Positions 8,190-61,807 of a DNA stretch of 64,000 bases are shown piece after piece. The position numbers and the translations under genes were made by a program. Positions within the stretch are counted from its first letter, which is position 1. Each line of letters starts with the position of its first letter. Source of the stretch: Mangrovibacillus cuniculi (GTDB lineage: Bacteria > Bacillota > Bacilli > Bacillales > R1DC41). A model generated the notes under the pieces. The model was not told where the DNA came from, searched no databases, and saw only the letters and a list, made by a program, of their open reading frames with translations. The stretch is from assembly GCF_015482585.1 (NCBI RefSeq), contig NZ_CP049742.1, forward strand, positions 2,139,001-2,203,000. Direction: 5' to 3'.

Positions 8190-8248
8190 AATGAAGTTGG
8201 CTCCTTTTAGTATATGATTATTTATATAAAGTAAGTTTACGAATTTCT

Positions 8249-8724
8249 AATCTCTTCTCAAATCGAGGTGCTTCTCTCCAGATGAGTATAGGACGCTCTT
8301 ATTCTCTTCTCAACTTGGGATTCCTCTTTCCAGATGCGTATAGAACCTCTCTATTCTCTTCTCAGCTCGGAATCCCTCTCTCCAGATGCGTATAGAGGGC
8401 CTCTATTCTCTTCTCAACTTGGGATTCCTCTCTCCAGATGCGTATAGAGGGCCTCTATTCTCTTCTCAACTTGGGATTTCTCTCTCCAGAAGCGTATAGA
8501 GAGCCTTTATTCTTTCCTAGCATCCATTTCCCTCGCGCTTCATGAGTTTAAGACGCTCTTATTCTCTCCTAGCTCCCATTTTCCTCGCGCTTCATGAGTT
8601 TAAGACGCTCTTATTCTCTCCCAGCTCCCATTTTCCTCGCCCTTCATGAGTTTAAGACGCTCTTATTCTCTCCTAGCTCCCATTTTCCTCGCCCTTCATG
8701 AGTTTAAGACGCTCTTATTCTCTC
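8249..8724. repeat. 52-bp tandem array, nine units
   Basis: The hexamer ATTCTC (or a one-base variant) starts at 8249, 8301, 8353, 8405, 8457, 8509, 8561, 8613, 8665 and 8717, exactly 52 bases apart. Units 1-5 resemble TTCTCAACTTGGGATTCC with TCTCCAGATGCGTATAG. Units 6-9 switch to CTCCTAGCTCCCATTTTCCT with CTTCATGAGTTTAAGACG, keeping the register. 52 is not a multiple of three, so translation across units is not conserved. The array fills the gap between the tRNA-Arg terminator and the thioredoxin-fold gene. Confidence 0.95.
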
Positions 8725-8788
8725 GGAGGATTAAGTTTCTTCTGGTTTCGAATGTTTAAAACGACATCCCTAATATAAGTATAGAAAA

Positions 8789-8814
8789 ATAGCCATCCAC
8801 CAAAGTGGATAGCT
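8789..8814 (-). terminator. Intrinsic terminator after tRNA-Arg
   Basis: Minus-strand hairpin TAGCTATCCAC / GTGGATGGCTA, followed by TTTTTC. It lies just below the tRNA 3' end. Confidence 0.85.
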
Positions 8815-8822
8815 ACTCATTA

Positions 8823-8894
8823 TGCCCCCGGAGGGAATCGAACCCCCATTTTAAGAACCGGAATCTTACGTGTTATCCATTACACTACGGAGAC
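8823..8894 (-). tRNA. tRNA-Arg (anticodon CCG)
   Basis: A full cloverleaf can be drawn on the minus strand: acceptor GTCTCCG/CGGGGGC, D-arm GTGT/ACAC, anticodon stem TAAGA/TCTTA around loop TTCCGGT (anticodon CCG), T-arm GGGGG with loop TTCGATT and CCCTC, and discriminator A. The 3' CCA is not encoded (ATA follows). A single tRNA-Arg beside clpP is also found in B. subtilis. Confidence 0.95.
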
Positions 8895-9711: not shown

Positions 9712-9735
9712 AAGCTCCCAATTAATTGGGAGCTT
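9712..9735 (+). terminator. Intrinsic terminator of clpP
   Basis: Fully palindromic AAGCTCCCAAT / ATTGGGAGCTT (9712-9735), followed by a T-run to 9740. It starts six bases after the clpP stop. Confidence 0.92.
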
Positions 9736-9740
9736 TTTTT

Positions 9741-9790
9741 ATTACGTGATCTGTAACAACTCATCGGTAGTGGCTTACCTTTAGATGAGT
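9741..9790 (+). repeat. Terminator-tail element (copy after clpP)
   Basis: Follows the clpP terminator T-run directly, in the sense direction. It retains TTACGTGATCTGTAA (hairpin A) and outer arms ACTCATC (9759-9765) and GATGAGT (9784-9790). The inner hairpin seen in other copies has lost its left half, leaving GTGGCTT. Confidence 0.8.
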
Positions 9791-9803
9791 CACCTTCTAT
9801 CCA

Positions 9804-13676: not shown

Positions 13677-13805
13677 AGCTTTCACCTACCTATATATAGC
13701 AATTATGATCTATTCTTATAAGTATACTATTATTGTACTAGAGAATGAACAAAATGTAACGTGAAATATAGACAACTTTATCTGGTGTGTCTTTCATTCA
13801 TGTTT

Positions 13806-14109
13806 ATTCTCTCCTAGCTTACATTTTCCTCGCACTTCGTGAGTTTAAGACCCTCTTATTCTCTCCTAGCTTGGATTTTCCTTGCGCTTCATGGGTTTAA
13901 GACCCTCTTATTCTCTCCTAGCTTCGATTTTCCTCGTGCTTCATGAGTTTAAGACCCTCTTATTCTCTCCTAGCTTCGATTTTCCTTGCGCTTCGTGAGT
14001 TTAAGACGCTCTTATTCTCTCCTAGCTTCGATTTCCCTCGCGCTTCATGAGTTTAAGACGCTCTTATTCTCTCCTAGCTTAGATTTTCCTCGCCCTTCGT
14101 GAGTTTAAG
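13806..14109. repeat. 52-bp tandem array, nearly six units
   Basis: ATTCTCTCCTAGCTT starts at 13806, 13858, 13910, 13962, 14014 and 14066, each 52 bases on; the last unit is cut at 14109. Units share TTTTCCTCGCGCTTCATGAG and AGACSCTCTT with the second half of the 8249 array, so both derive from one family. The array ends exactly where the terminator-tail element after trxB begins. It lies between yvcI and trxB. Confidence 0.95.
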
Positions 14110-14173
14110 GAGACTCACCTAAGAGCAAGCCACATCACGTGGCTAACGATGAGTTGTTGCCGTTCACGCAACA
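14110..14173 (-). repeat. Terminator-tail double-hairpin element (copy after trxB)
   Basis: In the sense direction the trxB terminator T-run is followed by hairpin A (GTTGC/GCAAC, 14168-14172 and 14156-14160, loop GTGAACG). Then come outer arms ACTCATC/GGTGAGT enclosing hairpin B (GCCAC/GTGGC, loop GTGAT, 14129-14143). The A-stem differs from other copies (GTTAC/GTAAC) by a compensated base pair. Confidence 0.85.
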
Positions 14174-14179
14174 AAAAAA

Positions 14180-14212
14180 GGAGCCACCAGTGTCTTCTAT
14201 ACTGGTGGCTCC
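14180..14212 (-). terminator. Intrinsic terminator of trxB
   Basis: Perfect 12-bp arms GGAGCCACCAGT and ACTGGTGGCTCC (14180-14191, 14201-14212), followed on the minus strand by seven T (14173-14179). Confidence 0.92.
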
Positions 14213-14313
14213 AAAAGTATTCTAAGGGGGTCAATTCTCTTCCTTAGAATAGCAAACCAATGTGTCAATTGGATTTCATTACCGTTAAAATGAAGTGACG
14301 TTTTGATTGCGAA

Positions 14314-17168: not shown

Positions 17169-17179
17169 CTTGGTTTTAA

Positions 17180-17244
17180 AGGAGACTCATCTAAAGGCAA
17201 GCCACATCACGTGGCGAGCGGTGAGTTGTTACAGGTCACGTAAC
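17180..17244 (-). repeat. Terminator-tail double-hairpin element (copy after hisI)
   Basis: Hairpin A GTTAC/GTAAC (17228-17232, 17240-17244) directly follows the terminator T-run. Hairpin B is GCCAC-ATCAC-GTGGC on the plus strand (17201-17215), giving loop GTGAT in the sense strand. Outer arms are ACTCA (17185-17189) and TGAGT (17222-17226). Confidence 0.85.
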
Positions 17245-17248
17245 AAAA

Positions 17249-17281
17249 AAAGCTACCCAGCATCCAACGCTAGGTAGCTTT
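17249..17281 (-). terminator. Intrinsic terminator of the his operon
   Basis: AAGCTACC and GGTAGCTT arms with further pairing AGC/GCT inside, followed by seven T on the minus strand. It lies five bases after the hisI stop. Confidence 0.88.
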
Positions 17282-27118: not shown

Positions 27119-28054
27119 TTATAGGTCCTCTACTTCTCCATCTTCAATTACATCTGCTAATTTCGCAGTAAATTGTTCTGCAGCGTTAACACCCATTCGT
27201 TTTAAACGGAAGTTCATCGCAGCAACTTCAATAATGACTGCTAAATTTCGACCAGGTCGAACTGGTAGTGTAATTCTTGTCACATCCGTATCAATAATAC
27301 GCATTTTCTCCTCTTCTAAACCAAGACGATCATAATGCTTGTTTTGATCCCATAGCTCTAAGTTAATAACCAATGTAACACGCTTGTGGCTTCGAACTGC
27401 TCCAGCACCGAATAGTGTCATAACGTTAATAATCCCTAATCCGCGAATCTCCAATAGATGCTCAATTAACTCAGGAGAAGATCCAATAAGCGTATCTTCG
27501 TCTTCTTGTCGGATTTCCACGCAATCGTCGGCAACTAGACGGTGACCGCGTTTCACTAACTCAAGTGCTGTCTCACTTTTACCGACACCACTCTTACCCA
27601 TAATCAGAACCCCTACACCATAAATATCCACTAATACTCCGTGAATTGCTGTAGTTGGAGCTAATTTACTCTCTAAATAGTTCGTTAATCTACTGGAAAA
27701 ACGCGTTGTCTTCATCGGAGATACCATAACTGGAACAGATGCTGCTTCCGCTGCCGCTAGCAACTCTTTCGGTACTTCCATCCCACGTGAAATAATAATC
27801 CCAGGTGTAACATCTGTACAAAGCTGCTGCATACGAGAAGCGCGTTGCTCTGTGTCTAGTCGCTCAAAAAAGCTTAACTCTGTTTTCCCTAAAAGCTGAA
27901 TACGATCGGCTGGATAATAGTTAAAGAATCCTGCCATTTCAAGCCCAGGACGAGAAATATCTGCGGTCGTAATCGGACGATGAACCCCTTCTTCGCCACT
28001 TAAAAGCTCAAGTCCAAACTTATCAATTATGTCTTGTGTGCGTGCCTTTACCAT
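27119..28054 (-). CDS. hprK: HPr kinase/phosphorylase
   Basis: Phosphorylates Ser46 of HPr and Crh in response to fructose-1,6-bisphosphate and reverses it with phosphate. The 311-residue protein has an N-terminal domain (residues 1-130), P-loop GKSGVGKS near residue 155, and the HprK signature [23 protein letters not shown] precedes ATG at 28054. It heads hprK-lgt-yvoD-ppaX-yvoF. Confidence 0.97.
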
Positions 28055-28124: not shown

Positions 28125-28187
28125 GAGTATTTGCTAAATTCCAGAGTTGATTTTTGACTCATTCGTGTGAAGCATTGGTGAAAGGGT
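28125..28187. repeat. Truncated copy of the four-way-junction element
   Basis: GAGTATTTGCTAAA through GATTTTTGACTCATTCGTGTGAAGC matches the left side of the intact element (28184-28231) with a few changes. After the left half of hairpin 1 it jumps to TGAAAGGGTATTTACTAAA, as if the middle and right side were deleted. It forms a direct repeat of about 48 bases with the intact copy. Confidence 0.75.
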
Positions 28188-28207
28188 ATTTACTAAACCC
28201 AGAATTG

Positions 28208-28346
28208 ATTTTTGGCTCATTCGTGTGAAGCTATGCTTCACACGCCTTTCAGCTATGCTGAAAGGTAGGCAGGGAAGGACCAGGTCTTTAGGGAAAGCTA
28301 GCTTTCCCGGCGACCTGGTCCTTCCCTGCCTAAATGAGCCAAAAAT
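28208..28346. repeat. Perfect four-way-junction element (nested inverted repeats)
   Basis: The outer stem is ATTTTTGGCTCATT (28208-28221) with AATGAGCCAAAAAT (28333-28346). Inside, with no unpaired base between them, are hairpin 1 (CGTGTGAAGC, loop TAT, 28222-28244), hairpin 2 (CCTTTCAGC, loop TAT, 28245-28265) and hairpin 3 (perfect 21-bp stem, 28266-28286 with 28312-28332). Hairpin 3 is capped by the palindrome GGGAAAGCTAGCTTTCCC (28291-28308). It lies between the yvlD terminator and hprK. Confidence 0.95.
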
Positions 28347-28370
28347 CCTGCAGTCACTAAATAGCAAAAA

Positions 28371-28404: not shown

Positions 28405-28758
28405 TTATGACTTGCGGCGATCATATACCATCTGCTGAAACAATGTGTTCATTAATGATAAAATAATGGCGATTAAAAACGATAACCAAAATCCATCTAC
28501 ATTAAAGGCATCCCCCATAAGCCAATCCGTTATCATGATGGAGAATGTGTTAATGACTAATAAGAAAAACCCTAGCGTTATCAACGTAATTGGTAAGGTA
28601 AAGATAATTAGTAGCGGCCTCACTACTACATTAACTATCGATAAAACCACGCTAGCCAGAACCGCTGCTGTCACACTAGATATAAACACACCTTCAAAAA
28701 AACCTGCCAATCCCAAAAAGATGGCAGCGTTAAAGAGAATTCCGACAATCCATTTCAT
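28405..28758 (-). CDS. yvlD: Phage-holin-family membrane protein YvlD
   Basis: A 117-residue protein with four hydrophobic segments (about residues 3-22, 25-50, 55-78, 88-108) and the family's VVNVVVRPLL-like motif (IVNVVVRPLLIIFTLPITLITLG). Family 4_TM / YvlD; molecular role unknown. AGGGGG, inside the yvlC end, precedes ATG at 28758. In B. subtilis yvlABCD responds to cell-envelope stress (SigW). Confidence 0.88.
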   Translation of the reverse strand: MKWIVGILFNAAIFLGLAGFFEGVFISSVTAAVLASVVLSIVNVVVRPLLIIFTLPITLITLGFFLLVINTFSIMITDWLMGDAFNVDGFWLSFLIAIILSLMNTLFQQMVYDRRKS

Positions 28759-37450: not shown

Positions 37451-37570
37451 CAGAGAAATACCTCCCTAAACAGAACAAAGATTCGTTATTTTTATTCTAC
37501 CACAAGCAAGTCATTTTTAACCAACAATATACGAAAGTATGTTCGTTATTTTATTTTTAAAATGAAGGAG

Positions 37571-37630
37571 ACTCATCTAAGAGCAGACCACATCACGTGG
37601 TCAACGATGAGTTGTTACTGGTCACGTAAC
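37571..37630 (-). repeat. Terminator-tail double-hairpin element (copy after csbA)
   Basis: Best-preserved copy. Hairpin A is GTTAC/GTAAC (37614-37618, 37626-37630). The outer arms ACTCATC/GATGAGT (37571-37577, 37606-37612) are perfect. Hairpin B has stem GACCAC/GTGGTC around ATCAC on the plus strand (37586-37602), giving loop GTGAT in the sense strand. The stem differs from GCCAC/GTGGC in other copies, with compensation. Confidence 0.88.
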
Positions 37631-37636
37631 AAAAAA

Positions 37637-37662
37637 ACCAACGATCTACTCCAATCGTCGGT
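37637..37662 (-). terminator. Intrinsic terminator of csbA
   Basis: ACCAACGAT and ATCGTCGGT (one mismatch) with seven T on the minus strand (37630-37636). It overlaps the last codons of csbA. Confidence 0.85.
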
Positions 37663-40310: not shown

Positions 40311-40460
40311 GGTCGCTTTCGCTGTAGTTCGGTCGCTTCGGCCGAAGTTCGGTCGCTTTCGCCGGAGTTTGGTCGCTTCTGCCGAAGTTCGGTCGCTTCC
40401 GCCGAAGTTTGGTCGCTTCGGCCGAAGTTCGGTCGCTTTCCCTGAAGTTTGGTCGCTCCA
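40311..40460. repeat. 20-bp tandem array, seven units plus a partial
   Basis: GGTCGCTTYSSCCGAAGTTY begins at 40311, 40331, 40351, 40371, 40391, 40411, 40431 and 40451. It is much richer in G+C than the surrounding sequence. 20 is not a multiple of three, and apparent open frames here are shifted each unit. It lies in the ctpB 3' region. Confidence 0.95.
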
Positions 40461-40467
40461 GTCATTA

Positions 40468-41922
40468 CTACCTTCCCTCAGCCTCCAAAATCTCCACAGC
40501 CTTTGCCAACTGCAAGTCGTTTTCTTGCTTGTTGATCTCCGCTCGAACCTGTTCTTCCAATGCCATTGCCGTTTGCTTATCGATTTGTCCAGAGACGACG
40601 ATGTTTTGTGCTACTTGGAAGTCGCGCACTGCTTTTTCTGTTTGAATGCTGAAGTAACCATCCGTTCGACCTGGTTCATATCCTAAGCCAGCTAACATTT
40701 CTTGTGCCGCTAGCACTTCTTCATTATTCATTTCACGCTTCAATGTTTCCGATAACTGCAATAGATGCGCATGGAAAATGGCCGGTTGCTGTACTTCTAC
40801 TGTTGGCTTAATACCTTTTCCATGAATCCAGTTTCCATCAGGTGTTAACCATTTTGCCATCGTCAACTTGATGGTACTCTTATCCGACAGTTCCAGTGGC
40901 TGTTGCACGGTTCCTTTACCGAAAGATGTTTCCCCAACTAACGGATATCCTCCCGCTTCTTGTAATGCTGCCGCTAAAATTTCCGACGCAGACGCGCTTC
41001 CTTTATCCATTAACACCGCGATTGGATATGGTTTTTTCTTTGCATTATTTGATTGAAAGCCTGTTGTTTCACCGTTTCGCTCTTGAATTTGCAAGTACGG
41101 CTTTTCAGCAGTCACCAGCGGCTGCACCATTTTCTCTACAGCTGATAACAATCCACCTGGATTTCCACGGACATCAATAATAATTCCGGCTACTTTTTTC
41201 GCTTCCAAATCCGCAATAGAAGTTAAGAAATCTTCCGCTGTATGTTCTGAAAAACTACTAACTTCGATTACGCCATACGTCTTCTCATTTTTCGTTACCA
41301 TCTCTGTTTTGACCGTCTCTACAGGAATCTCATCTCTCTTCACAATAACCGTTAAGGGATTCGCTAACCCTTTTCGCTTAATTTGAATTTGCACTGTCGA
41401 GCCTTTTTCCCCACGAATCTTCATGGTCGCTTCTACCAAATCTAATCCTTCCACTGATTGTCCATCTATCGCAAGAATTTGATCCAACGGCTTTAACCCA
41501 GCTTTTTCTGCAGGACTCCCTTTAAATGGAGAAACGATTACTAGCTTTCCATCTTGCACCGTTACTTCCGCACCAATTCCCTCGAAAGAAGATTGCAATG
41601 TTTGCTGGAAACGAGTTGCGGTCTCTGCATCCATGTAGACTGAATACGGGTCATTTAACGTTTGAACCATTCCTTCAATGGCACCTGCCACAAGCTCATC
41701 ATCAGACATTTCCTCTACATAAGAGTCGTGAATTAAACTGAACGCTTGTCTGATTTTCTCCTCTTGTTCCGGTGTGATATTTCCGTTAATCGGCGTCGCT
41801 ACACCGTTTGCCGTTTCAATTACTGTTAGTTGCTTTTCCTTCCACTCTGAGCCAAAGTACGCACCAACCGATCCAGTTAAAAGAGAACAAACCATAATGG
41901 TAGAAATAGTTTTTGTATGCAT
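40468..41922 (-). CDS. ctpB: Carboxy-terminal processing peptidase CtpB
   Basis: S41 serine protease, exported and membrane-anchored; in B. subtilis CtpB cuts SpoIVFA to trigger pro-SigK processing. The 484-residue protein has an N-terminal hydrophobic signal (residues 7-24), a PDZ domain (GIGAEVTVQDGKLVIVSPFKG), the catalytic Ser in MDKGSASASEIL and Lys in SFGKGTVQ, then a C-terminal peptidoglycan-binding domain (EMLAGLGYEPGRTDGYF). AGGAGGT precedes ATG at 41922. Confidence 0.93.
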   Translation of the reverse strand: MHTKTISTIMVCSLLTGSVGAYFGSEWKEKQLTVIETANGVATPINGNITPEQEEKIRQAFSLIHDSYVEEMSDDELVAGAIEGMVQTLNDPYSVYMDAETATRFQQTLQSSFEGIGAEVTVQDGKLVIVSPFKGSPAEKAGLKPLDQILAIDGQSVEGLDLVEATMKIRGEKGSTVQIQIKRKGLANPLTVIVKRDEIPVETVKTEMVTKNEKTYGVIEVSSFSEHTAEDFLTSIADLEAKKVAGIIIDVRGNPGGLLSAVEKMVQPLVTAEKPYLQIQERNGETTGFQSNNAKKKPYPIAVLMDKGSASASEILAAALQEAGGYPLVGETSFGKGTVQQPLELSDKSTIKLTMAKWLTPDGNWIHGKGIKPTVEVQQPAIFHAHLLQLSETLKREMNNEEVLAAQEMLAGLGYEPGRTDGYFSIQTEKAVRDFQVAQNIVVSGQIDKQTAMALEEQVRAEINKQENDLQLAKAVEILEAEGR

Positions 41923-50027: not shown

Positions 50028-50195
50028 TGTATTATTCCTCCTAATTTGATGTTTTTTGTCGGTTTAAAGTGTAAAAGTGTAACGGTGTAGTCATGGTTGG
50101 GGCGGTTGGTAGCTTGCTATGATTTTTGATTGCTTAGGATCTTTCATGGTGGATTTCGTTGTTGGTGGTTCTCAGTTTTGTGTTCTTCTTGCTTT

Positions 50196-50414
50196 GACGA
50201 CCGTCTTCGCTCTCTGGCGGTTCTCACTTTTGCTTTCCTCTCGTTTTGACGACCGTCTTCGCTCTCTGACGGTTCTCAACTTTGCTTTTCTCTCGATTTG
50301 ACGACCGTCTGCGTTCGCTGGCGGTTCTCAACTCTGCTTTCTTCTCGCTTTGACGACCGTCTTCTCTCTTTGGCGGTTCTCACTTTTGCTTTCCTCTCAC
50401 CTTGACGACCGTTT
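50196..50414. repeat. 52-bp tandem array (GACGACCGTC type)
   Basis: TTTGACGACCGTC recurs at 50196, 50248, 50300, 50352 and 50404 (position of GACGACCG), always 52 apart, followed by TTCGCTCTCTGGCGGTTCTC. GACGACCGTC and GGCGGTTCTC are partly complementary. The sequence is unrelated to the next array but has the same unit length. It lies upstream of metY. Confidence 0.95.
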
Positions 50415-50465
50415 TCGCATAGTAAAGCAACTTTATCAATGGTCTAAACAAACTTTCATCTCTTT

Positions 50466-50890
50466 GAGCACTCGTTATTCCATTAACGTGTGCTCTGCTC
50501 CTCTCTTCGGACTTCTTGAGCACCCGTTATTCCATTAACGTGTGCTCTGCTCCTCTCTTCTGACTCCTTGAGCACTCGTTATTCTGTTAACGTGTGCTCT
50601 GCTCCTCTCTTCGGACTCCTTGAGCACCCGTTATTCTGTTAACGTGTGCTCTACTTCTCGCTTCGGACTTCTTGAGCACTCGTTATTCTGTTAACGTGTG
50701 CTCTGCTCCTCTCTCCGGACTCCTTGAGCACCCGTTATTCTGTTAACGTGTGCTCTACTTCTCGCTTCGGACTCCTTGAGCACCCGTTATTCTGTTAACG
50801 TGTGCTCTGCTCCTCTCTTCGGACTCCTTGAGCACTCGTTATTTGTTTAACGTGTGCTCTGCTCCTCTCTTCGACCATCTTGATCACTCT
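50466..50890. repeat. 52-bp tandem array of eight hairpin units
   Basis: GAGCACYCGTTATT begins at 50466, 50518, 50570, 50622, 50674, 50726, 50778 and 50830, with a decayed ninth at 50882. In each unit GAGCACYCGTT pairs with AACGTGTGCTC after an eight-base loop (11-bp stem, one mismatch), giving a hairpin every 52 bases. It belongs to the family at 23784 and 59535. It sits between the riboswitch terminator and metY. Confidence 0.96.
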
Positions 50891-50949
50891 TTACCATGTT
50901 GAAAACCTAAAGTTGGGGGAATCTTGCTGAAGTACTTGTAAAATACAAG

Positions 50950-51116
50950 CAAAAGCGCCCCCTTCATAAGAAGAGGGCGCTGAGTATATACAGTCCTCCC
51001 CTTATCTTTCAAACGATCGCTCGTTTGTAGGATTTAGCACCATCTTTTGTCCGTTGACTAAAGTGGTTGCCGGGCTTCATCGGGCCTATTCCCTCCGCCG
51101 CTCTTGATAAGAGTAC
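50950..51116 (-). promoter_or_regulatory. SAM-I (S-box) riboswitch with terminator
   Basis: On the minus strand the S-box core is complete: P1 CTTATC (51106-51111) with GATAAG (51001-51006); AAGAGCGGCGGAGGGA; the kink-turn and pseudoknot region GGCCCGATGAAGCCCGGCAACC; and GGTGCTAAATCCT. It is followed by the terminator GCGCCCTCTTC / GAAGGGGGCGC (50955-50980) with TTTTG. SAM binding is expected to stabilise P1 and allow termination. The next gene downstream is metY, about 920 bases away. Confidence 0.95.
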
Positions 51117-59201: not shown

Positions 59202-59410
59202 GTGACTGCAGAGGGGTTTCCGCTGCAGGGGGGACGCTTTCCATTTCGAAAAGCGGAAGGCGCGCGTTCAGCCGTGGCAGAAAAGTTCAGAAGACCGAGT
59301 AGGCAGCTCTTCGGCCAACGGAGGGCTTTTGGACTTTTCCGAGCGGTTGCGCAACTGGAGCTAGACACCATACCTTTTCCGTAGGAGTCGCCCCCCCTTC
59401 CGCTCCAACA
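59202..59410. repeat. Composite repeat: second-family ends flanking an inserted first-family hairpin
   Basis: The ends, GTGACTGCAGAGG...GACGCTTTCC (59202-59242) and CCTTTTCCGTAGGAGTCGCC...CCGCTCC (59373-59408), match the two ends of the complete repeat at 61161-61300. The centre (59248-59369) is not that repeat's own hairpin but a reverse-oriented copy of the TGTCTAGCTCCAG repeat found three times at 61412-61806. Confidence 0.88.
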
Positions 59411-59493: not shown

Positions 59494-59521
59494 CAAGTGC
59501 TCTCCTTGAAGAATGCACTTG
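59494..59521 (-). terminator. Intrinsic terminator distal to prfB
   Basis: CAAGTGC and GCACTTG (59494-59500, 59515-59521), followed by seven T on the minus strand (59487-59493). It is the first convincing terminator after prfB, about 365 bases past the stop, so the 52-bp array would lie in the prfB 3' untranslated region. Confidence 0.8.
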
Positions 59522-59534
59522 TTACTCTTTTATT

Positions 59535-59850
59535 TTGTGCTCAAGACTCGTTTCTAGACATCTTGACCACATTTTATTCAGTTATCGTGTGTTCTAGATT
59601 CACTTTCGGACATCTTGACCACACGTTAACCATTTAACGAGTGCTCCAGACTCACTTTCGGACATCTTGACCACACGTTATTCATTTATCGTGTGCTCTA
59701 GACTCACTTCTAGACACCCAGACCACACGTTATTCATTTATCGTGTGCTCTAGACTCACCTCTAGACACCCAGACCACACGTTATTTATTTATCGTGTGC
59801 TCTAGAGCCGCAACAACCATTCTTGAGCACACAATAATTCTGTATCGTGC
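59535..59850. repeat. 52-bp tandem array in the prfB 3' region
   Basis: GACCACACGTTATTC or a close variant recurs at 59565, 59617, 59669, 59721 and 59773, each 52 apart, with TCGTGTGCTCTAGACTC between. GACCACACG and CGTGTGCTC form a hairpin at each junction. It belongs to the family at 23784 and 50466. Confidence 0.93.
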
Positions 59851-59885
59851 GCTCAACTTCTACTGACTCATTAGTAAAACACCTT

Positions 59886-61160: not shown

Positions 61161-61300
61161 GTGACTGCAGAGGGATTTCCGCTACAGGGGGATGCTTTCC
61201 ACGGGGCGGGCTGCTGAGCCTCCTCGTCGCGATAGTTCGCGCTCCTGTGGGGTCTCAGTAACCCACCTTTCCCGTAGGAGTCACCCCCTTCCGCTCCAAT
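61161..61300. repeat. Complete second-family hairpin repeat
   Basis: Starts GTGACTGCAGAGGG and ends GGAGTCACCCCCTTCCGCTCC. The central part has nested complementary arms (CTGAG/CTCAG, GCG/CGC, GGG/CCC). Repeats of this general type (GCGGAAGGGGGCGACTCC...) are widespread in Bacillaceae genomes. The ends flank another repeat at 59202-59410. Confidence 0.85.
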
Positions 61301-61411: not shown

Positions 61412-61486
61412 TGTCTAGCTCCAGGTGCGCAGATGCTAGGAAAACTTGGATGGCCCTGTGGTGGCTGATCGCGCGCCTACCGCTTT
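61412..61486 (+). repeat. First-family repeat TGTCTAGCTCCAG, shortened copy
   Basis: Has the left end TGTCTAGCTCCAGGTGCGC and the right end GCGCGCCTACCGCTTTT, but the middle is reduced to a short GGCCCTGTGGTGGCT-like segment. It is followed without a gap by the terminator-tail hairpins. Confidence 0.8.
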
Positions 61487-61487
61487 T

Positions 61488-61547
61488 GTTACGTGAACGG
61501 TAACAACTCAAGAAGGACGACGTGATGTCGTCCGTTCTTAACTGAGT
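61488..61547 (+). repeat. Terminator-tail element fused to first-family repeats
   Basis: Hairpin A is GTTAC/GTAAC (61488-61492, 61500-61504, loop GTGAACG). The outer arms are ACTCA/TGAGT (61506-61510, 61543-61547). Hairpin B is GGACGAC/GTCGTCC with loop GTGAT (61515-61533). The hairpin B stem differs completely from the GCCAC/GTGGC copies but stays fully paired. No plus-strand gene precedes it. Confidence 0.88.
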
Positions 61548-61563
61548 ATCCTCACTACAACGG

Positions 61564-61686
61564 TGTCTAGCTCCAGGTGCGCAACCGCTCGAGAAACTCC
61601 GAAAGCCCTCCAGTGGCTGGAGTACTGCCTCCTCGGTCTTCCGGAGTTTCCTGCCGCGGCTGAACGCGCGCCTTACGCCTTTCTTC
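61564..61686 (+). repeat. First-family repeat TGTCTAGCTCCAG, full copy
   Basis: Left end TGTCTAGCTCCAGGTGCGC, right end GCGCGCCTTACGCC. The central stem GAAACTCCG pairs with CGGAGTTTC. It is followed directly by the next copy. Confidence 0.87.
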
Positions 61687-61806
61687 ATGTCTAGCTCCAG
61701 GTGCGCAACCGCTCGGGAAAGTCTGAAAGCCCTCCGTTGGCTGAAGAGCTGCCTACTCGGTCTTCCAAACTTTCCTGCCGCGGCTGGACGCGCGCCTTCC
61801 GCTTTT
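61687..61806 (+). repeat. First-family repeat TGTCTAGCTCCAG, full copy abutting secA
   Basis: The central stem GGAAAGTCTG pairs with CAAACTTTCC, a different but still paired stem compared with the neighbouring copy. The right end, GCGCGCCTTCCGCTTTT, ends one or two bases before the secA stop codon. Confidence 0.87.
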
Positions 61807-61807
61807 C

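Follow-up and report, generated by a model that had tools for sequence, protein, structure and literature searches.

How a 139-bp element in the gap upstream of hprK in Mangrovibacillus cuniculi comes to fold into a perfect four-way junction, and what kind of element it is, are the questions raised by this locus. The window, i.e., the whole stretch of M. cuniculi DNA that was analyzed, is 64,000 nucleotides long. A first-pass annotation had proposed a mobile structured repeat, a cruciform recognized by a junction protein, or a structured RNA upstream of hprK, and took the perfection of the stems to imply recent origin or strong selection.

The element and its copies in M. cuniculi

The element (positions 28208 to 28346) consists of a 14-bp outer stem enclosing three hairpins, H1 (10 bp), H2 (9 bp), and H3 (21 bp), with no unpaired base at the junction. 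The 5′ and 3′ arms of the outer stem (28208 to 28221 and 28333 to 28346, plus strand) were assigned by sequence, fold, and alignment of the local copies. Between them, on the same strand, lie H1 (28222 to 28244), H2 (28245 to 28265, assigned by fold and pattern searches), both with the loop TAT, and H3 (28266 to 28332), where an asymmetric 4/3-nt internal loop separates the 21-bp stem from a 7-bp apical hairpin that forms the tip. The predicted fold matches exactly the stems and loops of the first-pass annotation and is far beyond chance. As RNA, it has an MFE of −100.5 kcal/mol (z = −15.65), which none of 200 dinucleotide shuffles equaled; as DNA, both strands adopt the corresponding four-way fold, at −65.0 and −65.1 kcal/mol (z = −16.4 and −18.0). 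The H2 form CCTTTCAGC-NNN-GCTGAAAGG is common across several genera. An assembly artifact is unlikely because diverged copies are present elsewhere in the M. cuniculi genome and folded copies in other genomes.

Both neighboring genes lie outside the element, on the minus strand: hprK (27119 to 28054; PF07475 and PF02603) and a gene for a PF04020 membrane protein, called YvlD in the first-pass annotation (28405 to 28758). To the left of the core, a degenerate flank (28184 to 28207) resembles, by eye, the GGCTATGTTA...TGTTGAT element end of relatives. The opposite flank (28347 to 28365, minus strand, right limit by eye) carries the motif GTGACTGCA at 28349 to 28357. This motif adjoins H1 in the local copies at 355k, 1001k, and 1936k and H3 in the window copy, so that the whole core of the latter appears to be inverted relative to its ends. 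The window copy shows neither a readable target duplication nor clear ends. Further to the left (28125 to 28183, limits by eye) there is a partial, hairpin-less tandem copy comprising an end-like segment (GAGTATTTGC...), one outer arm, one H1 arm, and an apparent H2 remnant. Positions 28141 to 28173 and 28199 to 28231, spaced by 58, share 94% identity across 33 nt, bearing out the earlier suggestion that 28125 to 28187 is a truncated duplicate; the fold of the latter segment is at chance level (equaled or bettered by 161 of 200 shuffles).

Eight copies of about 139 bp were found in the 3.15-Mb M. cuniculi genome, with BLAST, a pattern search, and a covariance model in agreement. All 16 pattern matches with at most two mismatches fell at the eight element places, and the backwards control gave 6 + 6 at up to three mismatches. 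The gaps occupied by local copies include ileS-lspA, atpA-atpG, mreB-mreC, polC-rimP, and ytpR-ftsK. The other seven copies are only 69 to 85% identical to the window copy in their best BLAST match (the 85% match spans 61 bases), making the recent origin considered in the annotation unlikely. While the outer stem, H1, and H2 vary little among the eight copies, the H3 stem has a different sequence in each of them and is still paired (94.6% of cells pair), with double changes at 16 of the 21 pairs and no G-U pair listed. Two of the copies, at 2454k and 2497k, have an inverted H3 interior. The copies of L005 (1502 to 1640), L006 (1503 to 1639), and L003 (1500 to 1639) lie between atpA and atpG, mreB and mreC, and polC and rimP on one strand, and from their position within these operons a very stable structure is probably transcribed there.

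The window also holds other repeats. Tandem arrays of 52 bp occur at 8246 to 8877, 13752 to 14226, 50111 to 50931, and 59511 to 59874, some of them related between sites, and a 20-bp tandem array around GGTCGCTTCGGCCGAAGTTC lies at 40311 to 40477. A dispersed family of about 78 nt, AAGGAGACTCATCTAA...CACGTAACAAAAAAA, is found in both orientations at 528 to 605, 14107 to 14184, 17179 to 17256, and 37565 to 37642, and inverted at 9733 to 9796 and 61484 to 61552. Repeats starting with GTGACTGCAGAGGGRTTTCCGC (59202 to 59410 and 61161 to 61300) carry the element-end motif GTGACTGCA with a different core; related repeats of about 120 nt are located at 59248 to 59367, 61562 to 61683, and 61688 to 61807. 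At the gathering threshold, Rfam recognized only a SAM riboswitch (50999 to 51113, minus strand) and a tRNA in the window.

Distribution, ends, and target sites in relatives

M. cuniculi is the only genome of its genus and family in the comparison. Of the 397 genomes of the order, 61 gave matches at E ≤ 1e-5, and these fall in 16 of its 135 genera; copy numbers are lower bounds, since at most eight candidates were scored per genome. The exact H2-based pattern was found in 26 stretches in named genomes, and the named carriers are Oceanobacillus sojae, Gracilibacillus timonensis, Niallia endozanthoxylica, Robertmurraya massiliosenegalensis, an Alkalihalobacillus, and three Bacillus strains. With one full element plus flanks as the query, there were at least 28 matching pieces in genome G097 and at least 15 in G126. 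Plasmids and phages gave no element match (blastn, E ≤ 1e-5).

Loci were kept one each (62 from 102 matches and 80 from 133), with reverse-strand matches dropped, as was a second weak match in L061; L062 has no model match. L160 is the same locus as L071 and was removed from the end, duplication, and junction counts; it was retained in the G-T pair count, the cross-genus stem comparison, and the larger set of overlapping pairs. L076 and L077 (<120 nt) were excluded from the G-T, gene-orientation, and junction counts. A four-way junction was predicted in 138 of 139 folded cores. The absence of unpaired junction bases, emphasized in the first-pass annotation, holds for seven of the eight local copies but not family-wide, where only 32 of the 139 cores have it. 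Across several genera, much of the sequence of the outer stem, H1, and H2 is retained.

Orthologous copies persist in the tig-clpX gap of genus g27, in the alcohol dehydrogenase-pgi gap of g20, and beside sufC in g62. The sufC element is at the same locus in seven g62 genomes (L143, L148, L151, L154, L156, L157, and L159), the left flanks of which align with one another at repeated offsets, in a tandem-repeat-like manner. A copy in the ileS-lspA gap, common to M. cuniculi and genus g39, had resembled deep conservation of an ancestral functional element. This was rejected: the gap is empty in the 48 other genomes inspected of the 120 searched, three of g39 included (covariance model check of 29 genomes and then of the other 19).

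Terminal repeats of the form GGCTNTGTTA...TGTTGAT lie on either side of the core in several genomes, among them G044, G097, G126, and Niallia. The terminal-repeat pattern was detected in 11 of 13 genomes searched and never with the reversed control pattern; there were no matches in M. cuniculi, where the ends are degenerate, or in G251. With a strict motif, both ends could be read in 15 of the 141 copies examined, and in 14 of these the 8-bp target duplications agreed at seven or more of the eight positions, nine of them perfectly; re-paired controls gave a mean of 1.17 and a maximum of 6 in 1,000. The readable target sites are AT-rich 8-bp sequences. An empty site could be resolved to the base in the congener G063, which has a single TTGGTAAA where L093 has two, and this undisturbed site defines the mobile unit at L093 as 195 bp. 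The mobile structured repeat of the first-pass annotation is supported by the multiple copies and, in relatives, by terminal repeats, 8-bp duplications, and an empty site. The element has the features of a MITE, i.e., it lacks a transposase gene, is multicopy, and shows in relatives terminal inverted repeats and a target duplication with an empty site.

The same kind of ends also flanks a 175-bp element with a different core (L236 and L225), and by eye the core occurs with two other kinds of ends, TATATAAGTTGAA in G103 and G255 and GAGCGTGTTCAAAAAGT in O. sojae. Three of eight O. sojae GAGCGTGTTCAAAAAGT copies examined (L059, L073, and L074) suggest, also by eye, 5-bp duplications.

A candidate transposase was found in G383, as a full-length, 371-codon ORF of the IS1595 family (NF033547, 4.6e-61; PF12762, 1.3e-13) that starts just inside GGCTATGTTAAACAACTCTGTTGAT; no recognized second end was found for this IS1595-type IS. 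IS1595 elements generate 8-bp target duplications. In G255, a 937-bp element is bounded at either side by such ends and by a TTTATTTA duplication; it contains a WapI-like gene as well as a short ORF that is a truncated homologue of the G383 transposase. It is therefore likely that IS1595-type transposases move the element with the four-way-junction core in trans. The 937-bp mobile cassette (L300, 275 to 1211, contig C112), with its GGCTCTGTTAAA ends and 8-bp duplication, carries the WapI-like gene as an immunity gene (PF24716, 2.7e-25) together with the truncated transposase. Among 18 genomes searched, the first 70 aa of the G255 ORF match only themselves and the G383 frame, i.e., two genomes, with no match in M. 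cuniculi or in the copy-rich G097, G126, and G044. ISL3 was considered as a partner and rejected: PF01610 was found in 4 of 10 genomes, and of 15 loci, nine were scanned and none had the full terminal pattern. An ISL3-like transposase locus in G383 also bears a GGCTCTGTTAAA end.

Concerted change in the hairpins

To follow the stems at fixed positions, loci were sorted by flank similarity into 16 orthologous groups and then aligned, giving 27 locus pairs in which each copy was used once (mean flank identity, 93.7%). In the H3 stem, 86 of 519 base pairs had changed, 63 of them by Watson-Crick double substitution, 18 on one side only, and 5 otherwise. The outer stem, H1, and H2 together had 46 changes in 852 pairs (9 double, 36 one-sided, and 1 other), and the H3 tip had 26 in 240 (7 double, 13 one-sided, and 6 other). 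The larger set of overlapping pairs gave the same picture. Approximately 15% of sites differ in the H3 stem, 3% in the other stems, and 6% in the flanks, which are partly coding. Since the outer stem, H1, and H2 change less than the flanks, they probably have a sequence-dependent role in mobility or folding.

Replacements in H3 are clustered, with 4 to 9 changed pairs each. Between L091 and L161, the flanks of which are 94 to 96% identical, 9 of 21 aligned H3 pairs differ, 8 of them by Watson-Crick double change, and L161 also shows a composite rearrangement. In L075 and L080 (flanks 99 to 100% identical), a single differing block makes one H3 arm the perfect complement of the other. An outside donor for the L091 H3 stem was sought in 13 genomes and rejected, as the only matches had 3 mismatches in 21, of which about one is expected by estimate. 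G-T pairs make up 209 of 8,288 predicted pairs, compared to 1,048 of 7,906 in mononucleotide shuffles of 40 cores. Among eight near-identical copies in G044, the 28 copy pairs contain 73 one-sided changes and 3 double changes that do not pair, whereas Watson-Crick double changes are absent. This suggests that mutations arise on one side and that the partner base follows later, through either template switching or selection.

Inversions occur at several scales. In 319 comparisons of unequal, equally long spacers (104 distinct), 33 (11 distinct) were unambiguous inversions and none was a pure reversal or a pure complement; inversions equal to the complement, counted apart, add 26 (6 distinct). 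None of the 25 H2 spacer differences at orthologous loci was an inversion. Loops and the H3 tip are also found inverted, and the whole core lies in opposite orientations at the same locus in L108 and L114, as it does in L049 relative to L104 and L124.

We consider it probable that the element is a non-autonomous DNA transposon (MITE) whose hairpins are homogenized and flipped by replication template switching. The 139-bp structure would be the core of a small MITE that in relatives moves within the GGCTNTGTTA...TGTTGAT unit, duplicating an 8-bp target, with IS1595-family transposases presumably acting in trans and the window copy representing an old, end-degenerate member. A replicating polymerase would switch template inside the palindromes, allowing them to persist. 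Copying of one arm from the other would make the arms match again, producing double changes and few G-U pairs, and a switch across the loop may invert the loop, the H3 tip, or the whole core, all of which are patterns observed here. The H3 stem would be nearly free in sequence provided that it pairs. Perfection may in this way be maintained without recent origin, because the arms are copied from each other, and the dichotomy of recent origin or strong selection drawn from it in the first-pass annotation is not needed. Template switching between inverted-repeat arms is reported to cause arm homogenization and spacer inversion (PMC8604942 and PMC8794818); the authors of the rRNA study describe their evidence that compensatory change maintains stems as circumstantial (PMC8794818). 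The purely one-sided changes of the G044 copies and the lack of H2 spacer inversions at orthologous loci weigh against this reading, as do the unreadable ends of the window copy and the failure to find the terminal pattern or the transposase homologue in M. cuniculi.

Template switching explains the matched arms but not the faster-than-flank or clustered change in H3, and neither it nor selection explains why change is faster than in the flanks for H3 and slower for H1 and H2. Sequence constraint on the outer stem, H1, and H2 would seem to be at work, together with an additional origin of new sequence in H3. A tentative reading, which we regard as rather improbable, is that the core is an exchangeable DNA module in MITEs with at least three end types and H3 a self-templated hypervariable region. 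Clusters of 4 to 9 new base pairs would then arise simultaneously on the two sides of the stem, which would change more than twice as much as the flanks, and the variation could possibly prevent copies from recombining with, or being silenced through, one another. Loops and core would flip as the terminal hairpins of parvoviruses do.

Alternative explanations and related systems

Two alternatives to template switching in a MITE concern the upkeep of the hairpins. Selection alone, acting through ordinary compensatory substitutions on a structured RNA or DNA element that needs its pairing, would account for the junction predicted in nearly all cores, for the sequence kept in H1, H2, and the outer stem across genera, and for the orthologous copies of g27, g20, and g62; the one-sided changes of the young G044 copies are likewise expected of selection before compensation. 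We nevertheless find it unlikely, given the few G-T pairs, the preponderance of Watson-Crick double over one-sided changes in H3 at such high flank identity, the inverted loops, H3 tips, and whole cores, and the emptiness of the ileS-lspA position, shared by M. cuniculi and g39, in the 48 other genomes inspected of 120 searched. The orientation relative to genes points the same way. In co-directional contexts the element was found 29 times in one orientation and 22 in the other (95 loci, one per orthologous group, with crude ORF calls; 20 of the 95 contexts lack one gene), a nearly even split that speaks against a strand-specific role as RNA. By the same crude ORF calls, elements lie in 20 divergent and 4 convergent gene gaps. 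Alternatively, a recombinase or junction resolvase acting on the extruded cruciform, rather than a polymerase, might cause both the inversions and the arm matching. Four-way DNA junctions are natural substrates of such enzymes, and whole-core and tip inversions require crossing at the stem arms. The one-arm block rewriting of L075/L080 and the composite rearrangement of L161 fit copying, not strand exchange, and leave this explanation doubtful.

The other two alternatives concern the nature of the element, and both appear highly improbable. An RNA cis-regulator or terminator of hprK or yvlD would be in keeping with the gap upstream of hprK, with the extreme stability of the structure if RNA, and with the probably transcribed copies between atpA and atpG, mreB and mreC, and polC and rimP on one strand. 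The structured RNA upstream of hprK of the first-pass annotation is, however, not supported, given the occupation of unrelated gaps, the about even orientation, the rarity of G-U pairs, and the lack of an Rfam match at the element at the gathering threshold. A REP/REPIN-type repeat moved by a RAYT (Y1) transposase could explain the scarce G-T pairs through single-stranded DNA hairpin signals. The annotation had suggested looking for such a gene, and Y1_Tnp hits were indeed obtained in all 14 genomes searched, M. cuniculi included, all of them element-bearing. Against this, 15 Y1 neighborhoods of about 3.3 kb each contained no element match at E ≤ 1 and showed other hairpins (e.g., GGGTCAGGCACGTGCCTGACCC) or none with arms of ≥8 bp; moreover, 8-bp duplications and terminal repeats do not fit Y1 chemistry. 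Near RAYT-like genes at L287 1258 and L299 1328 there are GGGTCAGGCAC/GGGGTCTGACCCC-type palindromes, perhaps their own REP signals.

Of the known systems, IS1595-type MITEs resemble the element in that they are small, lack a transposase gene, and have terminal inverted repeats and an 8-bp duplication, and one end of the present element matches an IS1595-family transposase locus. The differences are the central four-way-junction core, found by eye with two other end types as well, the arms changing in concert, and an autonomous partner that is a candidate only. REP/REPINs with RAYT share the intergenic hairpins and the presence of a Y1 gene, but the element has terminal repeats and an 8-bp duplication and is absent near 15 Y1 genes. 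EFAR repeats of Enterococcus faecalis, about 170 bp long, are miniature stem-loop elements like those described here; they insert into stem-loops, unlike the AT-rich 8-bp targets in our data. The order of the stems is similar to that of retron msr-msd, but the inversion of the core argues against a strand-specific RNA of this sort. By their description, bcr1 and bcr2-bcr18 resemble the element in being short, MITE-like repeats of Bacillus intergenic DNA; the same sources confine them to the B. cereus group and associate them with TTTAT motifs (PMC6542083 and PMC3446304). Template-switch hairpins (PMC8794818, 2022; Abraham and Hazkani-Covo 2021, PMC8604942) share with the present ones arm homogenization, multiple compensatory changes, and loop inversion. 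The cases in those papers are rRNA genes, including bacterial ones, and yeast coding DNA, whereas here a bacterial mobile element is involved, with stems of about 20 bp and events on the scale of the whole core. No description of this four-way-junction family was found in the literature searched, which included few subscription journals. The kind of element is known, the MITE, and the shared junction core with concerted, flipping hairpins is a variant worth study.

Double substitutions in stems are usually taken as a sign of functional RNA. The same pattern is seen here in a transposon, at many orthologous loci, with few G-U pairs and with inversions present. The element family offers a natural laboratory in which to measure bacterial template switching, and a caution for covariation-based RNA discovery.
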